A stretch of 64,000 nt of DNA from Rubripirellula amarantea. Lineage in GTDB: Bacteria > Planctomycetota > Planctomycetia > Pirellulales > Pirellulaceae. The stretch lies in assembly GCF_007859865.1 (NCBI RefSeq), contig NZ_SJPI01000001.1, positions 992,001 to 1,056,000 of the forward strand, written 5' to 3'. The position numbers and the translations under genes were made by a program. Below, in pieces: positions 49,892-59,527 of this stretch. A model generated the notes under the pieces. That model saw only the letters and a list, made by a program, of their open reading frames with translations. It had not been told where the DNA came from and ran no database searches. Every line of letters starts with the position of its first letter. Positions within the stretch are counted from its first letter, which is position 1.

Positions 49892-52800
49892 TTAAAGAGG
49901 CTGACGCAGGTAGCTCAATAAGTGGTAGAACGCTTGCGGTGTAAGATCACGTTCGATACCGGCTGGCATCAATGAAACGGTCATGGTTTTCATGGATTCG
50001 ATATCTTCACGATTGATGGTTGTTACTTTCCCTTCGGCTGCAATTAGCCGGACGGATGCTTCGTCTTGAGACAACACGATGCCAACCGCAACGCGGCCAT
50101 CGAGCGTTAGTATTTGGACCTGTCGGTAACGAGACTCGATCGCAGAGTTGGGATCAAAGATGGCAGTAAGTAAAAACTCGTTGTCTCGGTGAGCAACTGT
50201 GGCGAGGTCCGGTCCGACCTCGAAACCTTCACCGTTGAGTCGATGGCACGCGGCGCAAACACGACGGTAGACCGCCCTGCCCTGCTCGATGTCATTATTT
50301 TTGTCTGAACCATCACCCAATGAGCTTCGGTTTGCATTCGCGTCGGATATCGCTTTGCGATAGCTTGAAATCACCGCCGCGACGTCACTGTTATGCGAAC
50401 CCAATAACCTCTCGGCACGAACGCGGATGCTTTTGTCCGGGTATCCGAGCAAGCGATCACGCTGATGTGACACGAGCACGTTAGCATCGAGTGATCCCGA
50501 TTCCATTTCGGCCAGCAAGTGCCGAATGGACTCGTTGCGTTGCAATACCCAATCCACACAACGAGATTGCAAACCTGGGGTTTGCTCAGGCAATCGCCGG
50601 ATCAACTCTCGTCCTCCAGCTTCGCCAATCGATGCAACTGCGTCGACTGCCGCACGCTGAACCTCTGGTGCATACGCTGGTTCAATAAAACTCGCTAGAC
50701 GCTCGACATCGGTGTTTCCATCAGGATATCCGCTTGCCAACAATTCTAACGCAGTCAATTGCCCTGCCACTGGCGACTTGACATCCTGAGCCGCTGCAAC
50801 ACAGTCATCCAAGACATTCATTAGGTCCGCTGAAACGCCCAACTCGTCCCCTTGCTCTCGCTTGGCTAATTGCGACCAATCTGACTGTGCAATCGCCCAA
50901 GCCGCGATGATCGCCGCTCGTATATCACTACGGTCTTTTGATGAAGCCCATTTTTCTACCAACTGCTTTGTCTCATCCGACTGTTCGGCGACGGCGGTCA
51001 CCATTAGCGGCCTAAGCAGCTGGCGATCTCTCATTAACAACGACACACCGGCATCACTACCTACAAATTCCTGCAGTAGTTGCAGTGCAATCCCCGACGA
51101 GCTTGTCAAAACGACATCTCGTAGCTGGGGCCACTCGCTAGCCGAAACAAGTTGATTGGCGAGAGTTTGGGTTACCAGCTTCTTTCCGCGAAATTCAACG
51201 GGGAACTGCCCGATCGCCACACTGGCTTCCTTTCGCACCGTCGGATCACTCGACAAAAGACCATCGACGACGGCATTTAAGACTTGCTCGCTAGACAGCC
51301 AATCCTGGTGTGCATCCACTGATCCGATCAATCGCAATCCCACCACTTGCACCGACGAATCTCGATCACGAAGAACACCAATCAATCCGTCAACGTCCAA
51401 GTGTTGAAAACGAGCCAAACAGGCGGTTGCGGTCAAACGCGTGGTTGGCGATTCGGCTTCGGAAGCCATTTGACGAAGCGAGTCGACTTCTTCTTGCGAA
51501 AGCGTGTCGTGTCGCTGAATCATCTGGCTAAACGCCATATCACGAAGAACACCATTGGAGCTCGACAACGCGGGGATGCCATGACTCGCTTTCGCTTTCA
51601 GGACAACACTGGGTGAAGGAAGCGAAACGTCGGTTGCGTTTTGAGCGTCTTGTTGCGACGGAGGAATGATTCTCCAAATGCGTCCGCGTTCCTCGCCAGC
51701 ACGCAGGTTCATTTGCGCTTGCCATTGGTCAGGAATCCATTCGGGATGCTCAATTACGTTGCGATACATGTCGACCACCCACACCGCGCCATCGGGTCCG
51801 GTAATCGCCTGCACCGGGCGGAACCACGGGTCCGTTGCCGCCAACCATTCGCTTGCGCGATCTCGTTCATGCCTATTCGCTACCAGAGTGTTTTCTTCCC
51901 ACTCGATCACTGCTCGATGAACGAGGTTGTGCACCGGTTCGCAAATCAGCACGACGTCGGTATCCCATGATCGCGAACCCGAATGACCATCAAGCATCGC
52001 TTGACGTAGATTGGAATCGCGAACGGGCGAATGCGAACAAGCACTTGTAAATCGCCCCGCGGCAAATAGGTCGTTGTACCGTTGTGATGATGCCGTTGCA
52101 GGAAAGATGGGTGGCGCCGAAGCGGGTCTGGTCAGATCATTCACACCTAGAAACGCGTCGACATGTGAATTGCGATGCTGAACATGAGACGGCAGTGAAA
52201 AATGACGAAGGGGATGGCTGTTGTCACCTCCAAACCAATCTCCCCAATCATTTCGGTAGCGACCAAACTGTGTGAAGCCACTAAGACCACGTACGCGGCC
52301 GGACTTGATATCGATAGCAATGTCTTGGTGCGACACCTTCGTCTCTTGGCCGTTGATCACCGAACGAACCAACTTGGTGTCGTCGCCTCCGGCCAAATAC
52401 AACCAACCATCCAATCCAAGGCAAAATCCGTTGGCCCGGTGCTGAGGATTAGCTTCTGCGAAGCCTTCGAAGAGCACATCATGTTGGTCCGATACGCCAT
52501 CGGTATCCGTGTCGCGGTAGTACGTCAAATGCGGTGCAGCGGTGACCAGGATTCCATCACCCCACGGCATAGCACTGGTAGGATACGACAATCCGTCACA
52601 AAAAGTAACGGCTCGGTCGTAGGTGCCATCGCCATCATCATCAAACAAGTGTTTGATACGTCCGCCATTTTCACCCAGTGGATAGTCACCCATTTCTACG
52701 ACCCACAAAGAGCCATCCTTGTCGAACGAAAGATGTATCGGGTCAGCGATCAACGGTTCGGATGCGGCCAATTGCACCTTCCAGCCTTCGGGGACTCGGA

Positions 52801-54214
52801 TCGTCGACTCGGCTTTGTCTGCGGGAACAGGCTCATCGTTACCGGGCTCGCTGAGCATCTGATGGACGCGTTCGATGATGGCGTCTTCCGTTCCGGTGGC
52901 CCACCGTCCGGGCAATAGGTAATAGATCATCGAATAGTCAACTTCGTAGCCTCCTTCGCTTCGCATCCGCTCGCTGGCGACGTACCCAAAAACATCATTG
53001 GAGTACGCGGAAGACCAGGTGCGGACAGGAGCGAGTTCCTGTTGCAAACGCAACGCGTACTCAGCCACGACTTCGCCACCGAAGAAAATCATCTTGAGTG
53101 AAGATGCCGATTCGCCATCACCAAACTGCCATGTTCCGATCGGCATTGGGTGATTGGCGGGCAAACGATTTCGCTCTTCAAATATCTTCAACATCGCATG
53201 GGCGTGTCGTCGGGTTGGCACATCGTCGGACTCAGTTTGCGCTTTGAGTTCGTCCTTCGTTGGCAGGTCAAACCGAAGTGCCAATCGAGTGAACGAAGAG
53301 TTCTGGAAAGCGCCTAGTTCCTGCATCGGCCCTTGGATCACGTTACTAACTACACTCGCGAGTTCACGACCGTGTTCCAACGCATGAGCGCGTTCACCAC
53401 GAGGCGACGGATTCGCGTCGGCTCCGCAACCAATCGTGCATAGCGCAACAACCTCTCCGCCGGATTCAATCTGCCGAGCGGCATCGCCCGCCCATTCACT
53501 ACACACTTGATTGAAGTCGGGACCAAGCGTGGTGCAATGGCACGCATAGTTGAACACGACTCCTAAGAGCTTACCGTTGGTGTCCTCAGCACGAATCACG
53601 CTGACTCGGTGGTCCACTGGCCCATCTTGAGTTTCCCCAAACGCTGCCCATTTGCCGTCTCGGATCACTCGCCGGTTGATGGCAAAGGTTGCCTTGCCTT
53701 CGCCAAAGAACAGTCGTCCAGGCTTCATTGATGCGATCGACGCATCAATACAGTCGGCAACTTGTGCCTTGACCCACTGCGTGTACTTCAACGTCTTCTC
53801 AGATTCTTCATCCGTCATCGGTTTAAGCAGTAAGTTGCTTAGTCCGCCGGCGATCTTCGGAGCGGTGTGATTGTGCGTACTGCAAAGCACGAAGTCGGCA
53901 CGTTTGATCGCATGCTTCTGGGCAACCTGACCAAAGATTTCATCGACGACGGTTGCAGGCAAACCGATCGTGTCGACGCTAACCAAAACTCGAATCGGGC
54001 CATCGGCGTCGCGAAACGCCAAGGATCGAGCCGCAAGTGGACTGTCCACCGATTCGAAAGGAAGATCGCGCCGTGAGTATCCACTTAGTCGCAAAGGATC
54101 CGAAGGTGTAACGTCCACCTTGGCCACGCCAACCAGGCGTGTCACGGATTCATCAGCGTGAACCAGCGAGCACGCATGAAACAATAAACAAGCCAGCAAA
54201 GCGAACAATCGCAT
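49892..54214 (-). CDS. Giant exported fusion: ceramidase-like, membrane-bound dehydrogenase propeller and PVC-type cytochrome c domains
   Basis: A 1440-residue protein with a signal peptide. Residues about 25-460 are a neutral/alkaline ceramidase-like N-terminal domain (VGVAKVDVTPSDPLRLSGYSRRD, CSTHNHTAPKIAGGL, FNYACHCTTLG). From about 470 a dehydrogenase-type propeller follows (IRVPEGWKVQLAASEPLIADPIHLSFDKDGSLWVVEMGDYP), then a long helical HEAT-like region (about 900-1280). Near residue 1320 is a haem c motif CAACHRLNGEGFEVGPDLATVAHR, and the C-terminus resembles PVC-type cytochrome domains (DPNSAIESRYRQVQILTLDGR). This combination is typical of planctomycetes and verrucomicrobia. A dispersed-motif copy lies in the coding region near the cytochrome part (50271-50288, IEQGRAVYRRV). 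Role unknown; lipid or complex-carbohydrate breakdown is possible. Confidence 0.9.
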   Translation of the reverse strand: MRLFALLACLLFHACSLVHADESVTRLVGVAKVDVTPSDPLRLSGYSRRDLPFESVDSPLAARSLAFRDADGPIRVLVSVDTIGLPATVVDEIFGQVAQKHAIKRADFVLCSTHNHTAPKIAGGLSNLLLKPMTDEESEKTLKYTQWVKAQVADCIDASIASMKPGRLFFGEGKATFAINRRVIRDGKWAAFGETQDGPVDHRVSVIRAEDTNGKLLGVVFNYACHCTTLGPDFNQVCSEWAGDAARQIESGGEVVALCTIGCGADANPSPRGERAHALEHGRELASVVSNVIQGPMQELGAFQNSSFTRLALRFDLPTKDELKAQTESDDVPTRRHAHAMLKIFEERNRLPANHPMPIGTWQFGDGESASSLKMIFFGGEVVAEYALRLQQELAPVRTWSSAYSNDVFGYVASERMRSEGGYEVDYSMIYYLLPGRWATGTEDAIIERVHQMLSEPGNDEPVPADKAESTIRVPEGWKVQLAASEPLIADPIHLSFDKDGSLWVVEMGDYPLGENGGRIKHLFDDDGDGTYDRAVTFCDGLSYPTSAMPWGDGILVTAAPHLTYYRDTDTDGVSDQHDVLFEGFAEANPQHRANGFCLGLDGWLYLAGGDDTKLVRSVINGQETKVSHQDIAIDIKSGRVRGLSGFTQFGRYRNDWGDWFGGDNSHPLRHFSLPSHVQHRNSHVDAFLGVNDLTRPASAPPIFPATASSQRYNDLFAAGRFTSACSHSPVRDSNLRQAMLDGHSGSRSWDTDVVLICEPVHNLVHRAVIEWEENTLVANRHERDRASEWLAATDPWFRPVQAITGPDGAVWVVDMYRNVIEHPEWIPDQWQAQMNLRAGEERGRIWRIIPPSQQDAQNATDVSLPSPSVVLKAKASHGIPALSSSNGVLRDMAFSQMIQRHDTLSQEEVDSLRQMASEAESPTTRLTATACLARFQHLDVDGLIGVLRDRDSSVQVVGLRLIGSVDAHQDWLSSEQVLNAVVDGLLSSDPTVRKEASVAIGQFPVEFRGKKLVTQTLANQLVSASEWPQLRDVVLTSSSGIALQLLQEFVGSDAGVSLLMRDRQLLRPLMVTAVAEQSDETKQLVEKWASSKDRSDIRAAIIAAWAIAQSDWSQLAKREQGDELGVSADLMNVLDDCVAAAQDVKSPVAGQLTALELLASGYPDGNTDVERLASFIEPAYAPEVQRAAVDAVASIGEAGGRELIRRLPEQTPGLQSRCVDWVLQRNESIRHLLAEMESGSLDANVLVSHQRDRLLGYPDKSIRVRAERLLGSHNSDVAAVISSYRKAISDANANRSSLGDGSDKNNDIEQGRAVYRRVCAACHRLNGEGFEVGPDLATVAHRDNEFLLTAIFDPNSAIESRYRQVQILTLDGRVAVGIVLSQDEASVRLIAAEGKVTTINREDIESMKTMTVSLMPAGIERDLTPQAFYHLLSYLRQPL

Positions 54215-54289
54215 CTATACAACCCTTGGAGGAAGAAATCCCGAGGGCCGTATTATCACTTATCAGCCGGTCCGTTGCACGCGCAAAGG

Positions 54290-55870
54290 CTAGCCGCGTT
54301 TTTCGGAAATAATGCGATTAACCGCATTGAGCATCGCCAAAATCGTACTTTCAACGCTGTCCGTACTGACGCCGACGCCTCGGTAGCTCTTGCCTTTGTA
54401 TTCGACTTCGAGATTCACTTCGCCGATCGCGTCGCGACCCAGGGTCGCACTACGGATTCGGAAGTCCTTACACACGACTTCGATACCCGTGATTTTTTCA
54501 ACGGCGTAGAATGCTGCGTCGATCGGTCCATCACCCTGCTCTACCTGTTCGGTGATTTCTTCATCGCCATGCTTGAGCGTCAAATGTACTTCTGGGCCTC
54601 GGGTCTTGCCGCTCTTGACGATATAATCGACAAGCGTCCATTCTTCCTCGACGCTACCGCTGATCTTTTGTTGGACCAATGCGATAATGTCACCGTCGTA
54701 GATCTCTTTCTTTTTGTCCGCCAAAAGCTTGAACTGTTCAAACACCGCCACCAACTGTTCCGGTGTCAACGAAAAACCAAGCGTCTTGGCCCGATCCGCA
54801 AGTGCTGCTCGTCCGCTGTGTTTGCCAAGGACCAAGTCAGTTTTGGAAAATCCGACGTCCTCGGGTGACATGATTTCGTAGGTACTTCGTTCCTTGAGCA
54901 TTCCGTCTTGATGGATCCCCGATTCATGTGCAAACGCGTTGCGTCCGACGATCGCCTTGTTGCGTTGAACCTGGATTCCCGTCGTCTTGCTCAGTAAGCG
55001 GCTTGCTGGAACCAAGCGTTTGGAATCGATCGCGGTGTTGCAGTGATAGAAATCGCTGCGTGTCTTAAGCGCCATGACGATCTCTTCGAGCGCAGCGTTT
55101 CCGGCGCGTTCCCCGATCCCATTGATCGTGCATTCCACTTGCCCCGCCCCCGCTTCCACAGCCGCCAAGCTGTTCGCCACTGCCATACCCAAGTCATCGT
55201 GACAATGAGCACTTAAGATAGCCTTATCAATGTTGGGGACGCGATTACGAACCATCATGAAACGATCATAGATTTCACGCGGTGTGGTGTAGCCGACCGT
55301 GTCGGGCATATTGATCGTTGTGGCTCCGGCATCAATCGCAGCTTCAACCACGCGGCAAAGAAAATCATACTCAGTGCGGCAAGCGTCTTCGGGCGAGAAC
55401 TCGACGTCGTCACACCGATTGCGAGCTCGTTTCACACCGGCGACGGCACGTTCGACGATCTCGTCGGGAGTCATTCGCAGTTTGAATTCGCGGTGTATGG
55501 CGCTGGTGGCCAAGAAGACGTGAATACGGGACCTTTTGGCGGGTGCAACCGCGTCGGCTGCCGCGTCAATGTCTTTGTCACTGCAGCGGGCCAAGCCGCA
55601 AATGGTGGACTCAGTGATCGTCTCGGCGATCTTCTTGACGGATGCAAAGTCCCCTGGGGAAGCGATCGGAAACCCAGCTTCGATCACATCGACACCCATT
55701 TCCTGCAGCAACCCCGCGACCTCGAGCTTTTCAGCCAAGTTCATGCTCGCTCCGGGCGATTGCTCGCCATCACGAAGCGTCGTGTCGAAGATGCGAATCA
55801 ATCGCGGCGAAGCCGACGAGGCCTGTTCAGATTGATCTTGAGGAGCGGAAGTCGCGGTCGGATTGGACAT
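54290..55870 (-). CDS. leuA: 2-Isopropylmalate synthase
   Basis: A 526-residue enzyme that condenses acetyl-CoA and 2-oxoisovalerate in the first committed step of leucine synthesis. The DRE-TIM barrel is shown by [18 protein letters not shown] near residues 25-42, [40 protein letters not shown] with metal-binding His, and [13 protein letters not shown]. The C-terminal part carries the leucine-binding regulatory domain (about 150 residues). The ATG at 55870 precedes the conserved N-terminus; an in-frame ATG at 55936 lies inside the leader hairpins and is not used. An attenuator-like leader with a leucine-rich peptide lies upstream, so expression is probably controlled by leucine supply. Confidence 0.97.
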
Positions 55871-55909
55871 CGTGAAATCTCGTTGAAAATGGGCTGAGTG
55901 CACAGCATA

Positions 55910-55951
55910 AAAACCCCATTGCGGGGCAACAATCAAAACCCGTTACCGGGT
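55910..55951 (-). terminator. Two further hairpin-plus-T elements between the attenuator and leuA
   Basis: Reading on the minus strand, CCCG-GTAA-CGGG followed by TTTT (about 55937-55951) and CCCC-GCAAT-GGGG followed by TTTTT (about 55910-55926) stand between the main attenuator and the leuA start. Both have only 4-5 base stems, so they are weak terminators alone, but their placement repeats the pattern of the strong one. Confidence 0.5.
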
Positions 55952-55953
55952 AA

Positions 55954-55990
55954 CAAAAAAACCCCCAGTCGCCGGGCGACTGGGGGTTCG
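55954..55990 (-). terminator. leuA leader terminator (attenuator)
   Basis: Arms AACCCCCAGTCGC and GCGACTGGGGGTT (forward 55960-55972 and 55976-55988) form a perfect 13-base stem with a 3-base loop; the minus strand then runs into seven T. It lies about 50 bases after the leader peptide stop. The upstream strand CGAACCCCC (forward 55982-55990) can instead pair with GAGGGTTTG near forward 56029-56037, which would break the terminator. Confidence 0.85.
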
Positions 55991-56038
55991 TTGTCTCGTG
56001 TTATTTGGCGGCCATCTTGCCGTCATCACAAACCCTCA

Positions 56039-56095
56039 TCACCCGCCGAATTGGCGTCCCAGTAGGAGCGATAGGGTTAATAGATAGGTTTGCAT
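56039..56095 (-). CDS. leuL: Leucine-rich leader peptide of leuA
   Basis: An 18-residue frame, MQTYLLTLSLLLGRQFGG, ending in TGA (forward 56039-56041). Six of 18 residues are leucine, five of them in the run YLLTLSLLL, read by CTA, TTA, CTA, CTC, CTA and CTG codons. Its coding strand contains AACCCT (forward 56073-56078), which can pair with AGGGTT in the region after the stop (forward 56031-56036). A ribosome stalled at the leucine codons would cover that segment and leave AGGGTT free to pair with the terminator arm. No ribosome-binding site precedes the ATG, which fits a leaderless transcript. The peptide and pairing segments are seen directly; the mechanism is inferred from known leu and ilv attenuators. 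Confidence 0.78.
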   Translation of the reverse strand: MQTYLLTLSLLLGRQFGG

Positions 56096-56101
56096 AGCGA
56101 T

Positions 56102-56131
56102 ATGGTAGGCAAGAGTCGGGGGCAACGTCAA
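56102..56131 (-). promoter_or_regulatory. Promoter of the leuA leader transcript
   Basis: On the minus strand TTGACG (forward 56126-56131) and TACCAT (forward 56102-56107) are 18 bases apart. The expected start point falls at or within two bases of the leader ATG (56095), so the leader peptide would be translated from a leaderless mRNA. Confidence 0.6.
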
Positions 56132-56298
56132 TGGTTCACTGAAATCTCACGAATTCCCAAAGGAATGTAAAAAGCCAGCCTTTCAAAAAAGATCCTAACA
56201 AAGACCTGTGCCGATTCGTTGTAAAAAGCAAGTGCGGATAACGCGAGAGCTCGTGTCAATTCGCCGCTTTTCACACTCCTTCTTCATAGGTGCTCGTC

Positions 56299-57603
56299 AT
56301 GACTCGCTATTTCTTGGCCGGACTCATTTTTGTCGGATCCTCTTGGGCTTGGGAAAAAGCCAGTGCTCAAGAAATTCGCACCACCGACACCAGTCAGACC
56401 GAATCGCCCAAAACTAAAACGAACAAGCCACCGAAAGCGAAACGCCAGATCAAACGCGGCATCAAATGGCTGGTCGCCGCGCAACAAGCCAATGGCGGCT
56501 GGGGCGCCGGCAGTCACGCGCACCAAGAAATTCGCGATCCCAACGCCGTTCCTACCGATCCAGCCACAACCGCATTCGCTGCGACCGCGTTACTAAAAGC
56601 GGGGCATACTCCCACATCAGGCGACTATCAAGATGCGGTTCGCCAAGCGACCGAAAATCTCGTCGCGACGGTTGAAGCAGCCGAGCCGAAAAACGCGAAG
56701 ATCACGTCGCTTTCCGGCACTCAGCCGCAACGCAAACTCGGCGAGATGATCGATACCGCGATGACGGCACAATTCCTCACTCGCGTTGCCGAGCATCTTC
56801 CCCAAAATGACCCCTTGGCCAAACGAGTGGAAGCGGCTCTATCGGAGTGCCTTGAACGACTTGAGCGAACCCAACAAAAAGATGGTAGCTGGCAAGGTGG
56901 CGGCGGATGGGCGCCCGTCTTGCAATCGGCGATGAACTGCAACTCCCTCGAAATGGCTCTGGCGACAGGACGCAAGGTCGACGCCAGCAAATTAAAAGCG
57001 GCCAAGCAGTATCAGAAATCCAGCATCAACATTGATTCCGGCGCCGCGATGTCAGGCGCCTCTGGAGGCGTCGAGCTCTACGCGTTCGCCGGCGGACTGC
57101 GAGGTAACGCTGGCGACGCTGCCGAAGCTCAACAAGCCGTTGAGTCGGCTAAAGCAGCAGGCAAACTAGAAGAAGACGCCCCCGTCAATGAACAGTCTCT
57201 TCGAATTGCCGGAGTTTCAGAAATCCGAGCGAAAGAACTGGGCGATGCCACAGCGCAAAACCAATCGCAATTACGTCGACTATCTGACGAGCAGCTATTA
57301 GCCGGCTTTGGCAACAACGGCGGCGAAGAGTTCCTTAGCTATCTGATGACTAGCGAATCGCTCGTCATTGCTGGCGGCGAAGCATGGGACAAATGGAACA
57401 AGAACATGACAAGTCGATTGGGAAAGGTGCAAAACCAAGACGGCAGTTGGAGCGGTCACCATTGCATCACCAGTCCCGTTTTCTGCACCGCTGCTGCTCT
57501 GCAAGTCTTGCTTACCGAAAAGGACGTGGACCTGCTGCGTAAGATTGCGAAGCTAAAGGATTCAACTTCCAACGATGACGACGAACCTGCGCAAGGTAAG
57601 TAG
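56299..57603 (+). CDS. Squalene-cyclase-like alpha-alpha toroid protein (exported)
   Basis: A 434-residue protein with a signal peptide (RYFLAGLIFVGSSWAWEKASA) and prenyltransferase/squalene-oxidase-type repeats: RGIKWLVAAQQANGGWG, LERTQQKDGSWQGGGGWAPVLQSAMNC and LGKVQNQDGSWSGHHCITSPVFCTAAALQVL, each with a QxxDGSW-like turn. These repeats form an alpha-alpha barrel, but the DxDD or cyclase catalytic motifs of squalene-hopene cyclases are not seen, so this is probably a structural relative. The ATG at 56299 is chosen; a GTG at 56290 is in frame. The next gene, two bases on, is a second protein of the same fold. Confidence 0.82.
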   Translation: MTRYFLAGLIFVGSSWAWEKASAQEIRTTDTSQTESPKTKTNKPPKAKRQIKRGIKWLVAAQQANGGWGAGSHAHQEIRDPNAVPTDPATTAFAATALLKAGHTPTSGDYQDAVRQATENLVATVEAAEPKNAKITSLSGTQPQRKLGEMIDTAMTAQFLTRVAEHLPQNDPLAKRVEAALSECLERLERTQQKDGSWQGGGGWAPVLQSAMNCNSLEMALATGRKVDASKLKAAKQYQKSSINIDSGAAMSGASGGVELYAFAGGLRGNAGDAAEAQQAVESAKAAGKLEEDAPVNEQSLRIAGVSEIRAKELGDATAQNQSQLRRLSDEQLLAGFGNNGGEEFLSYLMTSESLVIAGGEAWDKWNKNMTSRLGKVQNQDGSWSGHHCITSPVFCTAAALQVLLTEKDVDLLRKIAKLKDSTSNDDDEPAQGK

Positions 57604-57605
57604 TC

Positions 57606-58799
57606 ATGGACACGATCTTCCACCGCCGAGGTTTCTTGGCAAGCGTCGTCACGATTGCCGCTGGTTACCCGGCGTACGCTAGCACACCGTTGTGTACGCT
57701 TCGTGATTCCCTAGCGTCCTACCTGCGAGCGTCTCAGCAGTCGGACGGACGTTGGGTGAGCCCCAACTATGGCGTCCTACGTAGCGGACAAGCGATGACG
57801 CCATTTGTGCTTGAGGCATTGCTGACGCACGAATCTCAATCACAATCAGTCAGTGCATCAACTAGTACGTTAGCCATCGCACCAAGCAGTACATCGAATC
57901 GGGCCCTGGACTGGATTGCGGCCAATCTTCGCGGTGGTTGTCTCGGCATGTCGGATCCTGACGTGATGGAATATCCCGTCTACGCGACTTCGCTCGCACT
58001 GAAGTGCTTCATTCAGGCTGGAAGAATCGATTCGCAACCAGCCAAAGCGATGCGAGCGTACTTGATTGGCCAACAGTTCAACCAAAGCCGAGGTTTCGAG
58101 CGAAGTCACTTGGCATACGGCGGATGGGGATTCGGTGGAGTTCACATCGACGGTCAAACGGGGCACATGGATATCGTTCACACACGATTGGCCCTCGAGG
58201 CAATTGCGGTGTCCGGACCGCCGGATACCCGATGTTTTGAACACGCTAAGCATTTCTTAAGGCTCATGCAAAAACACCCCAACGAAGATAGGCATCAACC
58301 AACCTCCGACGCGGGTGACGAAAAACCGAATCAAGATTCACCTCCTTTTGACGGCGGCTTTTATTTCTCCCCCGTCGTGTTGGGTGCCAACAAGGGGCGT
58401 GTCGTGCAATCGAAGTCGGCAAACTACTTTCGCAGTTACGCTACCGCGACGTGCGACGGTGTGCTCGCTCTACTCGCTGCAGGTGTTTCCCGTCAAGATC
58501 CTAGGGTTGTAGCGGCCGAGAACTGGCTGACTTCGAAAAAGGATTGGTCCTATCCCGAAGGCATTCCTCGTGACTATCCCGAACCTTGGGGAGAAGCGGT
58601 TTACTTTTACCATCAAGCTGTGCGGGCGGCTGCCTATCGACATCTTAATATCGATGGTCCTTGGCGAGAGGATCTTTGCGAGCGAATCCAGGCACAAGTC
58701 CGTTTAGATGGCAGCATCGTCAATCAAAGAAGCAGTCTGATGAAGGAGGATGACCCAGTGATGTGCACCGCGCTCGCACTCCACGCTCTCAACCAATGA
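57606..58799 (+). CDS. Second exported alpha-alpha toroid protein
   Basis: A 397-residue protein with a twin-arginine-like leader (HRRGFLASVVTIAAGYPAYA) and toroid repeats: LASYLRASQQSDGRWVSPNYG, GFERSHLAYGGWGFGGVHI and a C-terminal VRLDGSIVNQRSSLMKEDDPVMCTALALHAL. It starts two bases after its neighbour stops, so the two are co-transcribed and probably act together. Like its neighbour it lacks an obvious catalytic Asp cluster. Function not recognised. Confidence 0.8.
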   Translation: MDTIFHRRGFLASVVTIAAGYPAYASTPLCTLRDSLASYLRASQQSDGRWVSPNYGVLRSGQAMTPFVLEALLTHESQSQSVSASTSTLAIAPSSTSNRALDWIAANLRGGCLGMSDPDVMEYPVYATSLALKCFIQAGRIDSQPAKAMRAYLIGQQFNQSRGFERSHLAYGGWGFGGVHIDGQTGHMDIVHTRLALEAIAVSGPPDTRCFEHAKHFLRLMQKHPNEDRHQPTSDAGDEKPNQDSPPFDGGFYFSPVVLGANKGRVVQSKSANYFRSYATATCDGVLALLAAGVSRQDPRVVAAENWLTSKKDWSYPEGIPRDYPEPWGEAVYFYHQAVRAAAYRHLNIDGPWREDLCERIQAQVRLDGSIVNQRSSLMKEDDPVMCTALALHALNQ

Positions 58800-58819
58800 G
58801 ACAGCGAGATCAGGTCTGT

Positions 58820-59527
58820 TTATCTCAGAGTTTCGTTAACACCAAAGAACAGCCAATCCGTTTGGTCATGGTCTACTAGCGCATTAAAGGTCTTGATCGG
58901 TTCAACATGAACGTTATCGAATGTCGCTCGCAAAGCATCCGAAAAATCGCTGCTTTCCGCGTAAGACCACACCGCCAACACTCCGCCGTCGGCCAGATGT
59001 CCCTTGGCGTTGGCTAAGCCCATAGACGTGTAGAACTGATGTTCATCGTCGGCCAACTGATCACTCGGTGAATGATCGACGTCAATCACGATCAAATCAA
59101 ATAGCTCACTAGGTTCACTCAAAAGCTTCTGATAGACATCGCCGGACGTAAGTTGCAGATGATCTGCAGCATTCAATTCTCCGGACAAAGGAATCAGATC
59201 CTCGCGCAGCCAGCCTAGAACCTGCGGCAGATATTCGATGACCTCGACGGACGTCACTTTGGAATGCTTTAGCAATTCCCAGGCGGTGTAGCCTAAACCG
59301 AAGCCGCCGACGAGTGCCTTTAAACTGCCACCACCATGGATCTCGACGGACCGCTGTGCAATGGCACGTTCTGAATCCGTGTTGAAACTGCTCATCAAGA
59401 ATTCGTGGTTCAACGTCACTTCCGTCACCACCGTGCCGGGCTGCGACAACAACTCTCGTCGACGTAGACAAAGCGGTCCCAGTGGTGTGTCTTCGTAAGC
59501 CAGGATTTCTAACTTAGGTGAACTCAT
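58820..59527 (-). CDS. Spermidine-synthase-like methyltransferase-fold protein
   Basis: A 235-residue protein with a Rossmann-type core: LKALVGGFGLGYTAWELLKHSKVTSVEVIEYLPQVLGWLREDL (the nucleotide/decarboxy-SAM binding strand-loop-helix) and LFDLIVIDVDHSPSDQLADDEHQFYT, whose acidic residues correspond to the polyamine-site region of spermidine synthases. Family members of this size often act on other amines, so aminopropyl transfer is only probable. The ATG at 59527 precedes the first core strand; an upstream ATG at 59557 is possible. It converges on the toroid gene with a 20-base gap. Confidence 0.82.
   Translation of the reverse strand: MSSPKLEILAYEDTPLGPLCLRRRELLSQPGTVVTEVTLNHEFLMSSFNTDSERAIAQRSVEIHGGGSLKALVGGFGLGYTAWELLKHSKVTSVEVIEYLPQVLGWLREDLIPLSGELNAADHLQLTSGDVYQKLLSEPSELFDLIVIDVDHSPSDQLADDEHQFYTSMGLANAKGHLADGGVLAVWSYAESSDFSDALRATFDNVHVEPIKTFNALVDHDQTDWLFFGVNETLR

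Follow-up and report, generated by a model that had tools for sequence, protein, structure and literature searches.

The DNA stretch analysed here (the window, 64 kb of the Rubripirellula amarantea genome) carries leuA, encoding 2-isopropylmalate synthase, on the minus strand, and the protein scored above the cut-offs of both TIGR00973 and NF002086. Along this strand, a promoter, a leader ATG at 56095, 18 codons, a TGA stop codon at 56041-56039, a terminator, two smaller sites made of a hairpin and T's, and leuA itself follow one another in this order. The individual features are given below.

56126..56131, minus strand: -35 box TTGACG (promoter scan; TTGAC and an 18-nt spacer also occur in Rhodopirellula-like relatives)
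56102..56107, minus strand: -10 box TACCAT, ending 6 nt 5' of the leader ATG (promoter scan)
56039..56095, minus strand: leader ORF MQTYLLTLSLLLGRQFGG, stop codon included (direct reading, relatives, detector)
56060..56083, minus strand: putative leucine control codons, codons 5-12, CUA UUA ACC CUA UCG CUC CUA CUG (codon table)
56067..56078, minus strand: segment 1, within the leucine codon run, partner of segment 2 (folding, swap test)
56028..56044, minus strand: segment 2, which includes the leader stop codon, 5' side of the predicted antiterminator (folding, swap test)
56006..56025, minus strand: possible small hairpin within the 2:3 antiterminator loop (folding, weak)
55974..55991, minus strand: segment 3, 3' side of the predicted antiterminator and 5' arm of the terminator (folding)
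55959..55989, minus strand: terminator hairpin (3:4), then a T run to 55955 (terminator scan; 3:4 matched and covarying in relatives)
55938..55951, minus strand: second small hairpin, then T's (terminator scan)
55913..55927, minus strand: third small hairpin, then T's (terminator scan)
54290..55870, minus strand: leuA, 2-isopropylmalate synthase, 526 aa (NCBIfam TIGR00973 714.8 bits, NF002086 736.8 bits; Pfam LeuA_dimer)

A first-pass annotation of the same letters had described an 18-codon minus-strand frame with six leucine codons, starting at 56095 and stopping at 56039-56041, and direct reading bore this out, the leucine codons being CTA, TTA, CTA, CTC, CTA and CTG in order. The terminator and T-run that it had placed at 55954-55990 were recovered by the terminator scan as a stem at 55989-55959 with 14 pairs (G-T permitted), a loop of 3 and then T's, and the two complementary motifs that it had named, AACCCT (56078-56073) and AGGGTT (56036-56031), are both present. 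An alternative pairing with the terminator arm does exist as proposed, but its extent had been understated, as folding gave an antiterminator 2:3 of 15 pairs in two helices (56044-56028 with 55991-55974). The promoter TTGACG-18-TACCAT and the hairpin-T sites at 55951-55938 and 55927-55913 are additions to the earlier description; among 36 Rhodopirellula-like loci, counting that of the window, just one has an extra terminator-like hairpin 3' of the putative attenuator. Past leuA by 75 nt, a same-strand gene (49892-54214) encodes a 1440-aa protein with a ceramidase-like N-terminus, DUF7133 and PVC-type heme-binding CxxCH domains, and a divergent gene (56290-57603) matches the squalene-hopene cyclase C-terminal domain.

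The detector used for such leaders required a terminator preceded by an ATG-initiated ORF, 12-40 aa long, in which a stretch of 10 residues holds 4 or more leucines. The leuA leader was the sole place in the 64-kb window that passed on either strand. Among dinucleotide shuffles of the leuA upstream region, 3/2000 passed, while the ORF alone was obtained in 302/2000 and the terminator alone in 32/2000.

The comparison of leuA upstream regions in related planctomycetes, which the first-pass annotation had called for, showed that the ORF, the leucine run and the terminator recur. At E 1e-100, LeuA was recovered from 133 of the family's 149 genomes, and the best 30 of these 133 LeuA places together with 80 named loci, minus 8 duplicates, gave a first set of 102 nonredundant loci. 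Leader and terminator were detected in 74/102 upstreams, compared with 0/1020 shuffles and 0/102 reverse strands, and the same detector set to any other amino acid was positive in at most 1/102 upstreams. In the 28 loci where the leader went undetected, 3 hold a leucine-run ORF with the terminator undetected. The set was enlarged by 140 order-wide and family loci, from which 35 duplicates were removed, under a slightly looser terminator rule, and the added sets were positive in 38/62 and 33/43, giving a pooled total of 145/207 loci (looser rule in the added sets; the shuffle control belongs to the 102-locus set with the stricter rule).

Outside the family, 65 genomes had LeuA and 60 upstreams were used, with a leucine run defined as at least 5 leucines in 10 residues and no terminator required. 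A leucine-run ORF was present in 26/60 upstreams, against 9/600 shuffles and 1/60 reverse strands. By family, it was found in 11/12 upstreams of f3 (same class), 3/4 of f54, 3/3 of f20, 2/4 of f47, 2/2 of f39 and 1/8 of f32, and within this 60-upstream set it was absent from f10 (0/5), f34 (0/4), f53 (0/4) and several smaller families. The codon-position differences among four f3 leaders (14, 37 and 26 at positions 1, 2 and 3) are not coding-like. In f20, all three loci (L170-L172, from G212, G199 and G183) have two tandem leucine-rich leader-like ORFs before leuA.

The peptide had been expected in close relatives, and this holds for the 74/102 upstreams but not for Rubripirellula obstinata, which, with a LeuA 89% identical, is the closest relative found and whose leuA upstream contains no leader detectable by the detector. 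By eye, GAACCATTGA of the -35 region is retained in this species, an inverted repeat, GGCCGGAACAAGCG ... CGCTTGTTCCGGCC, occupies the place of the leader (L033:1180-1530) and is perhaps a REP-like element, and a degenerate terminator-like hairpin remains 3' of it. A Rhodopirellula/Neorhodopirellula variant was also noted in L015, L016, L017, L022, L029, L042 and L043, with a longer peptide that has ...FVV near its end, a different, GCCCG[AG]GCC-like terminator arm and what may, judged by eye, be an AUUCGU/ACGAAU antiterminator core.

The leaders also differ from leuA in codon choice, CUA accounting for 28.3% of leader leucine codons (149/527) versus 2.0% of those within the initial 600 nt of leuA (16/799). 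A promoter-like site lies within 52 nt 5' of the ATG in 32/74 leaders versus 2.3% of mononucleotide shuffles, and the distance from the end of the -10 box to the ATG is 6 or 7 nt in 30 of these 32. Rhodopirellula-like loci make up 28 of the 32 promoter-bearing leaders, 27 of them with the 6-7 nt gap. A Shine-Dalgarno-like 4-mer was found before 7 of the 74 leaders. A transcription start about 7 nt past the -10 box would fall on the ATG, so that the leader ORF is probably leaderless, with transcription starting at or next to its ATG. When the leaderless-promoter pattern was searched in the whole genome, 5 matches were obtained (control 1), and the match at leuA alone opens a short leucine-run ORF.

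The RNA from the leader to the terminator folds at -59.3 kcal/mol (z -4.66), with 0/200 shuffles as good, and the same RNA minus the terminator gave a z of -1.58 with 15/200 shuffles as good, indicating that the strength of the fold comes mostly from the terminator. Folding with masked bases, also proposed in the first-pass annotation, was carried out with the ribosome either over the leucine codons, in seven placements that put the A site within codons 5-12, or at the stop codon. With segment 4 absent, the minimum-energy fold under the leucine-run masks was the two-helix antiterminator 2:3, the ribosome at the stop codon, which falls inside segment 2, abolished it, and the ribosome-free RNA likewise folded into 2:3. 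With segment 3 absent as well, 1:2 was the fold formed. Once segment 4 was present, the terminator was the minimum-energy fold under every mask tried, and the switch must therefore be kinetic. Since the ribosome-free fold before segment 4 is 2:3, termination without translation is not predicted from energy alone, and the outcome for untranslated RNA depends on 1:2 holding segment 2 until termination. At the window's locus, 2:3 was better than in shuffles (p 0.03) and 1:2 did not outperform random synonymous codons (p 0.26); over the 74 loci, 2:3 had a mean z of -1.91 against shuffles (p<=0.05 in 49%) and 1:2 a mean z of -1.16 against random synonymous codons (p<=0.05 in 36%).

The first-pass annotation had also asked whether both pairings co-vary, and the answer was divided: partners proved matched within loci for 1:2, 2:3 and 3:4, but a clear signal in fixed alignment columns was obtained for 3:4 only. 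In the swap test, which is register-free, the duplex energy of each locus's own segments was compared with that of permuted partners over 74 leaders and 5000 permutations, and own partners beat permuted ones for 3:4, 2:3 and 1:2 (0/5000 permutations each). The unpredicted control pairs showed no matching in the same 74 leaders (1:3, 3629/5000; 2:4, 1349/5000), and the outcome was the same in sets thinned to 18 and to 8 dissimilar leaders. Reversed controls that keep composition were weak and not null in the full set, with Z of -2.2 (1:2), -2.1 (2:3) and -4.0 (3:4) versus real values of -8.3, -9.3 and -16.6; in the set thinned to 18 they were -1.3, 0.0 and -2.7 versus -5.0, -5.0 and -7.9.

For the fixed-column analysis, 17 hand-chosen near leaders (A1) and 33 of 34 distant TAG-stop leaders (A2, L078 excluded) were aligned. 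Covariation exceeded shuffles for 3:4 alone, which was counted on the distant group only. For 2:3, 69.1% of cells were paired in the 33 distant leaders versus 68.8% in shuffles, and its covariation score was reached by 154/500 shuffles there and by 18/500 in the 17 near leaders; that of 1:2 was reached by 63/500 in the near leaders. The weak fixed-column signal of 2:3 and 1:2 is probably due to a nearly invariant core together with register shifts between loci. The helix columns of the small hairpin in the antiterminator loop were paired in just 47.3% of cells of the near-leader alignment.

The locus combines a short ORF with a codon run for the regulated amino acid 5' of the cognate biosynthetic gene, an intrinsic terminator between leader and gene, read from sequence, and an antiterminator 2:3 with a protector 1:2 from folding and swap tests, features expected of a classical attenuator. 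The leu/ilv-type reading put forward in the first-pass annotation gains support from the recurrence, the matched pairings and the mask folding, and we consider the element, with a probability of about 0.89, to be a ribosome-mediated transcription attenuator of leuA that responds to leucine. Transcription would begin at or next to the leader ATG, and the leader would be translated as a leaderless ORF. When charged tRNA-Leu runs low, particularly the species reading the rare CUA codon, the ribosome would stall in the leucine run and cover segment 1, leaving segment 2 free to form the 2:3 antiterminator, and the polymerase would read through into leuA. When leucine is plentiful, the ribosome would reach the stop codon, and because this codon lies in segment 2, 2:3 could not form and the 3:4 terminator would end transcription. 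In RNA that is not translated, 1:2 would form before segment 3 appears and may keep segment 2 occupied until termination occurs; this last step is uncertain, as the modelled energy favours 2:3 once segment 3 is present.

The same antiterminator could also serve a leader in which the nascent peptide arrests the ribosome in response to a signal other than leucine, as in the TnaC and Erm leaders, and within some genera the C-terminal parts of the peptides do resemble each other, several Rhodopirellula sharing ...SRFVV. However, it is mainly the leucine run that is common to the loci while residue positions drift, and the 28% versus 2% use of CUA favours tRNA supply over the peptide, so that arrest of this kind appears improbable. 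An equally small chance is given to translational control of the type suggested for the actinobacterial LEU element, in which the structures would mask or unmask the ribosome-binding site of leuA and termination would be minor. Such control would suit the hairpin of Gemmata-like genomes, about 22-28 nt before the leuA start with a T run mostly short or broken, but the window's hairpin, with its T run, makes a strong intrinsic terminator, and across the 74 leaders the median distance from terminator to aligned LeuA start is 102 nt.

An unregulated combination, in which a leucine-rich ORF arisen by chance lies next to a terminator that acts constitutively on an upstream transcript, is hardly credible. 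Such an ORF alone appears in about 15% of shuffles, but the combination of ORF and terminator is rare in shuffles and common in relatives, and 1:2 and 2:3 are matched within loci. Leaders for other amino acids were looked for upstream of ilvB (15 loci), hisG (17) and trpE (15) in 16 genomes, and no ORF with a codon run plus terminator was found; an ORF containing two Trp, though no terminator, was seen in part of the trpE upstreams.

In part of the Pirellulales, tRNA-Leu(UAA), the decoder of UUA, is encoded 3' of leuA. In 32/207 nonredundant loci (12/102, 14/62 and 6/43 in the three sets), including L055, L060, L064, L074, L076, L088, L102 and L104, the gene lies at most about 1.2 kb from leuA and on the same strand, and this count is a lower bound because some loci have less than 1.2 kb of downstream sequence. 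Apart from these, tRNA calls near leuA amounted to four, all in the first set of 102 loci and on the opposite strand. Among 36 Rhodopirellula-like leader loci, the window's included, the arrangement was found in 0 in the flanking sequence covered. The leader was detected in 26 of the 32 loci and undetected in 6, and in 8 of the 26 leader-bearing loci the gap between leuA and the tRNA gene is below 200 nt, one tRNA gene overlapping the predicted leuA end. In the first 12 loci, terminators went undetected between leuA and the tRNA gene, and several of the longer gaps hold ORFs.

At least one UUA is present in the leader of 26/26 tRNA-bearing loci versus 26/119 others (Fisher 1.4e-14, relatedness ignored). 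After tree correction the link kept the same direction throughout and was not significant: among 7 supported independent pairs, UUA differed in the same way in 1.9, in the opposite way never and not at all in 5.1, and an earlier, smaller set of 5 pairs had given 2.4, 0.0 and 2.6. We regard it as a tentative, rather doubtful proposal that in one branch of Pirellulales the attenuator forms a tRNA-specific feedback loop, in which a leader with UUA codons would control both leuA and the tRNA-Leu(UAA) gene, and both genes would be transcribed more when charged tRNA-Leu(UAA) is scarce. The same leader may control a leucine tRNA gene in one lineage.

The leu leader of enterobacteria (the leuL attenuator) has a 1-2-3-4 layout and CUA control codons and lies before leuA. 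The planctomycete element resembles it in the leucine codon run of a short leader, the mutually exclusive 1:2, 2:3 and 3:4 pairings, the intrinsic terminator, the use of CUA and the position before leuA, but differs in that a Shine-Dalgarno-like 4-mer is missing in 67/74 leaders and that the ATG lies 6-7 nt past the -10 box (27/28 Rhodopirellula-like). A search with 4227 Rfam models of window positions 53000-59000 (E up to 1) and of 20 loci gave no family at gathering score in the window, and tRNAs were the only matches in the 20 loci. The T-box covariance model had no match in the same sequences, and His_leader (RF00514) gave a sub-threshold match at 56083-55953 (28 bits, E 0.17; gathering score 49), although the codon run here is Leu, not His.

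The actinobacterial LEU element likewise has a leader peptide with a leucine run before leuA, and is described as a pseudoknot whose base stem pairs the leucine run with the Shine-Dalgarno box of leuA, with mutant data cited as inconsistent with classical attenuation (PMC1262725); unlike it, the planctomycete leader has a terminator and the 1-2-3-4 layout. In another phylum, the ilv attenuator peptide of Staphylococcus aureus is also a leucine-rich leader for branched-chain amino-acid synthesis (PMC5794164). Short leader genes in Planctomycetes, similarly short ORFs 5' of genes, were counted by Korolev et al. 2016, who discuss reinitiation and the short distance between leader and gene; neither leuA nor leucine is mentioned in the main text of that paper (PMC4833913). 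No description of a planctomycete leuA attenuator was found in the open-access literature, and the present element would extend classical leu attenuation, with a probable leaderless start, to this phylum, although the comparative analysis of attenuation by Lopatovskaya et al. 2010, as cited in PMC4833913, could already cover planctomycete leu attenuation.

In the nine genomes of genus g205 (family f69), which we infer to be Gemmata, the squalene epoxidase family is clearly matched. A leucine-containing ORF lies before leuA in 9/9 of these genomes (7 with ATG and 2 with GTG starts, assigned by eye), and it is followed in 9/9 by a GGCCCCGG hairpin about 22-28 nt 5' of leuA, the T run of which is mostly short or broken. 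Pairing of this hairpin with the later part of the ORF gave p 0.03-0.14 against synonymous codons, and the codon-position differences among the nine leaders (159, 100 and 200 at positions 1, 2 and 3) are mildly coding-like. These features make the Gemmata-like leader a weaker attenuator candidate, not a demonstration.

Classical attenuation requires the ribosome to be directly behind RNA polymerase. A recurrent planctomycete leucine attenuator, together with the weaker Gemmata-like candidate, would be genetic evidence for transcription-translation coupling, of which the attenuator offers a simple reporter test; if the feedback loop and the Gemmata-like leaders are true, attenuation would provide a working in vivo test of coupling in planctomycetes. 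Spatially separated transcription and translation was reported for Gemmata obscuriglobus (Gottshall et al. 2014, cited in PMC6212462 and PMC5394234). Of two other genera of f69 that were compared, G368 does not have the same layout, and G372 has both a leucine-containing ORF and a terminator.
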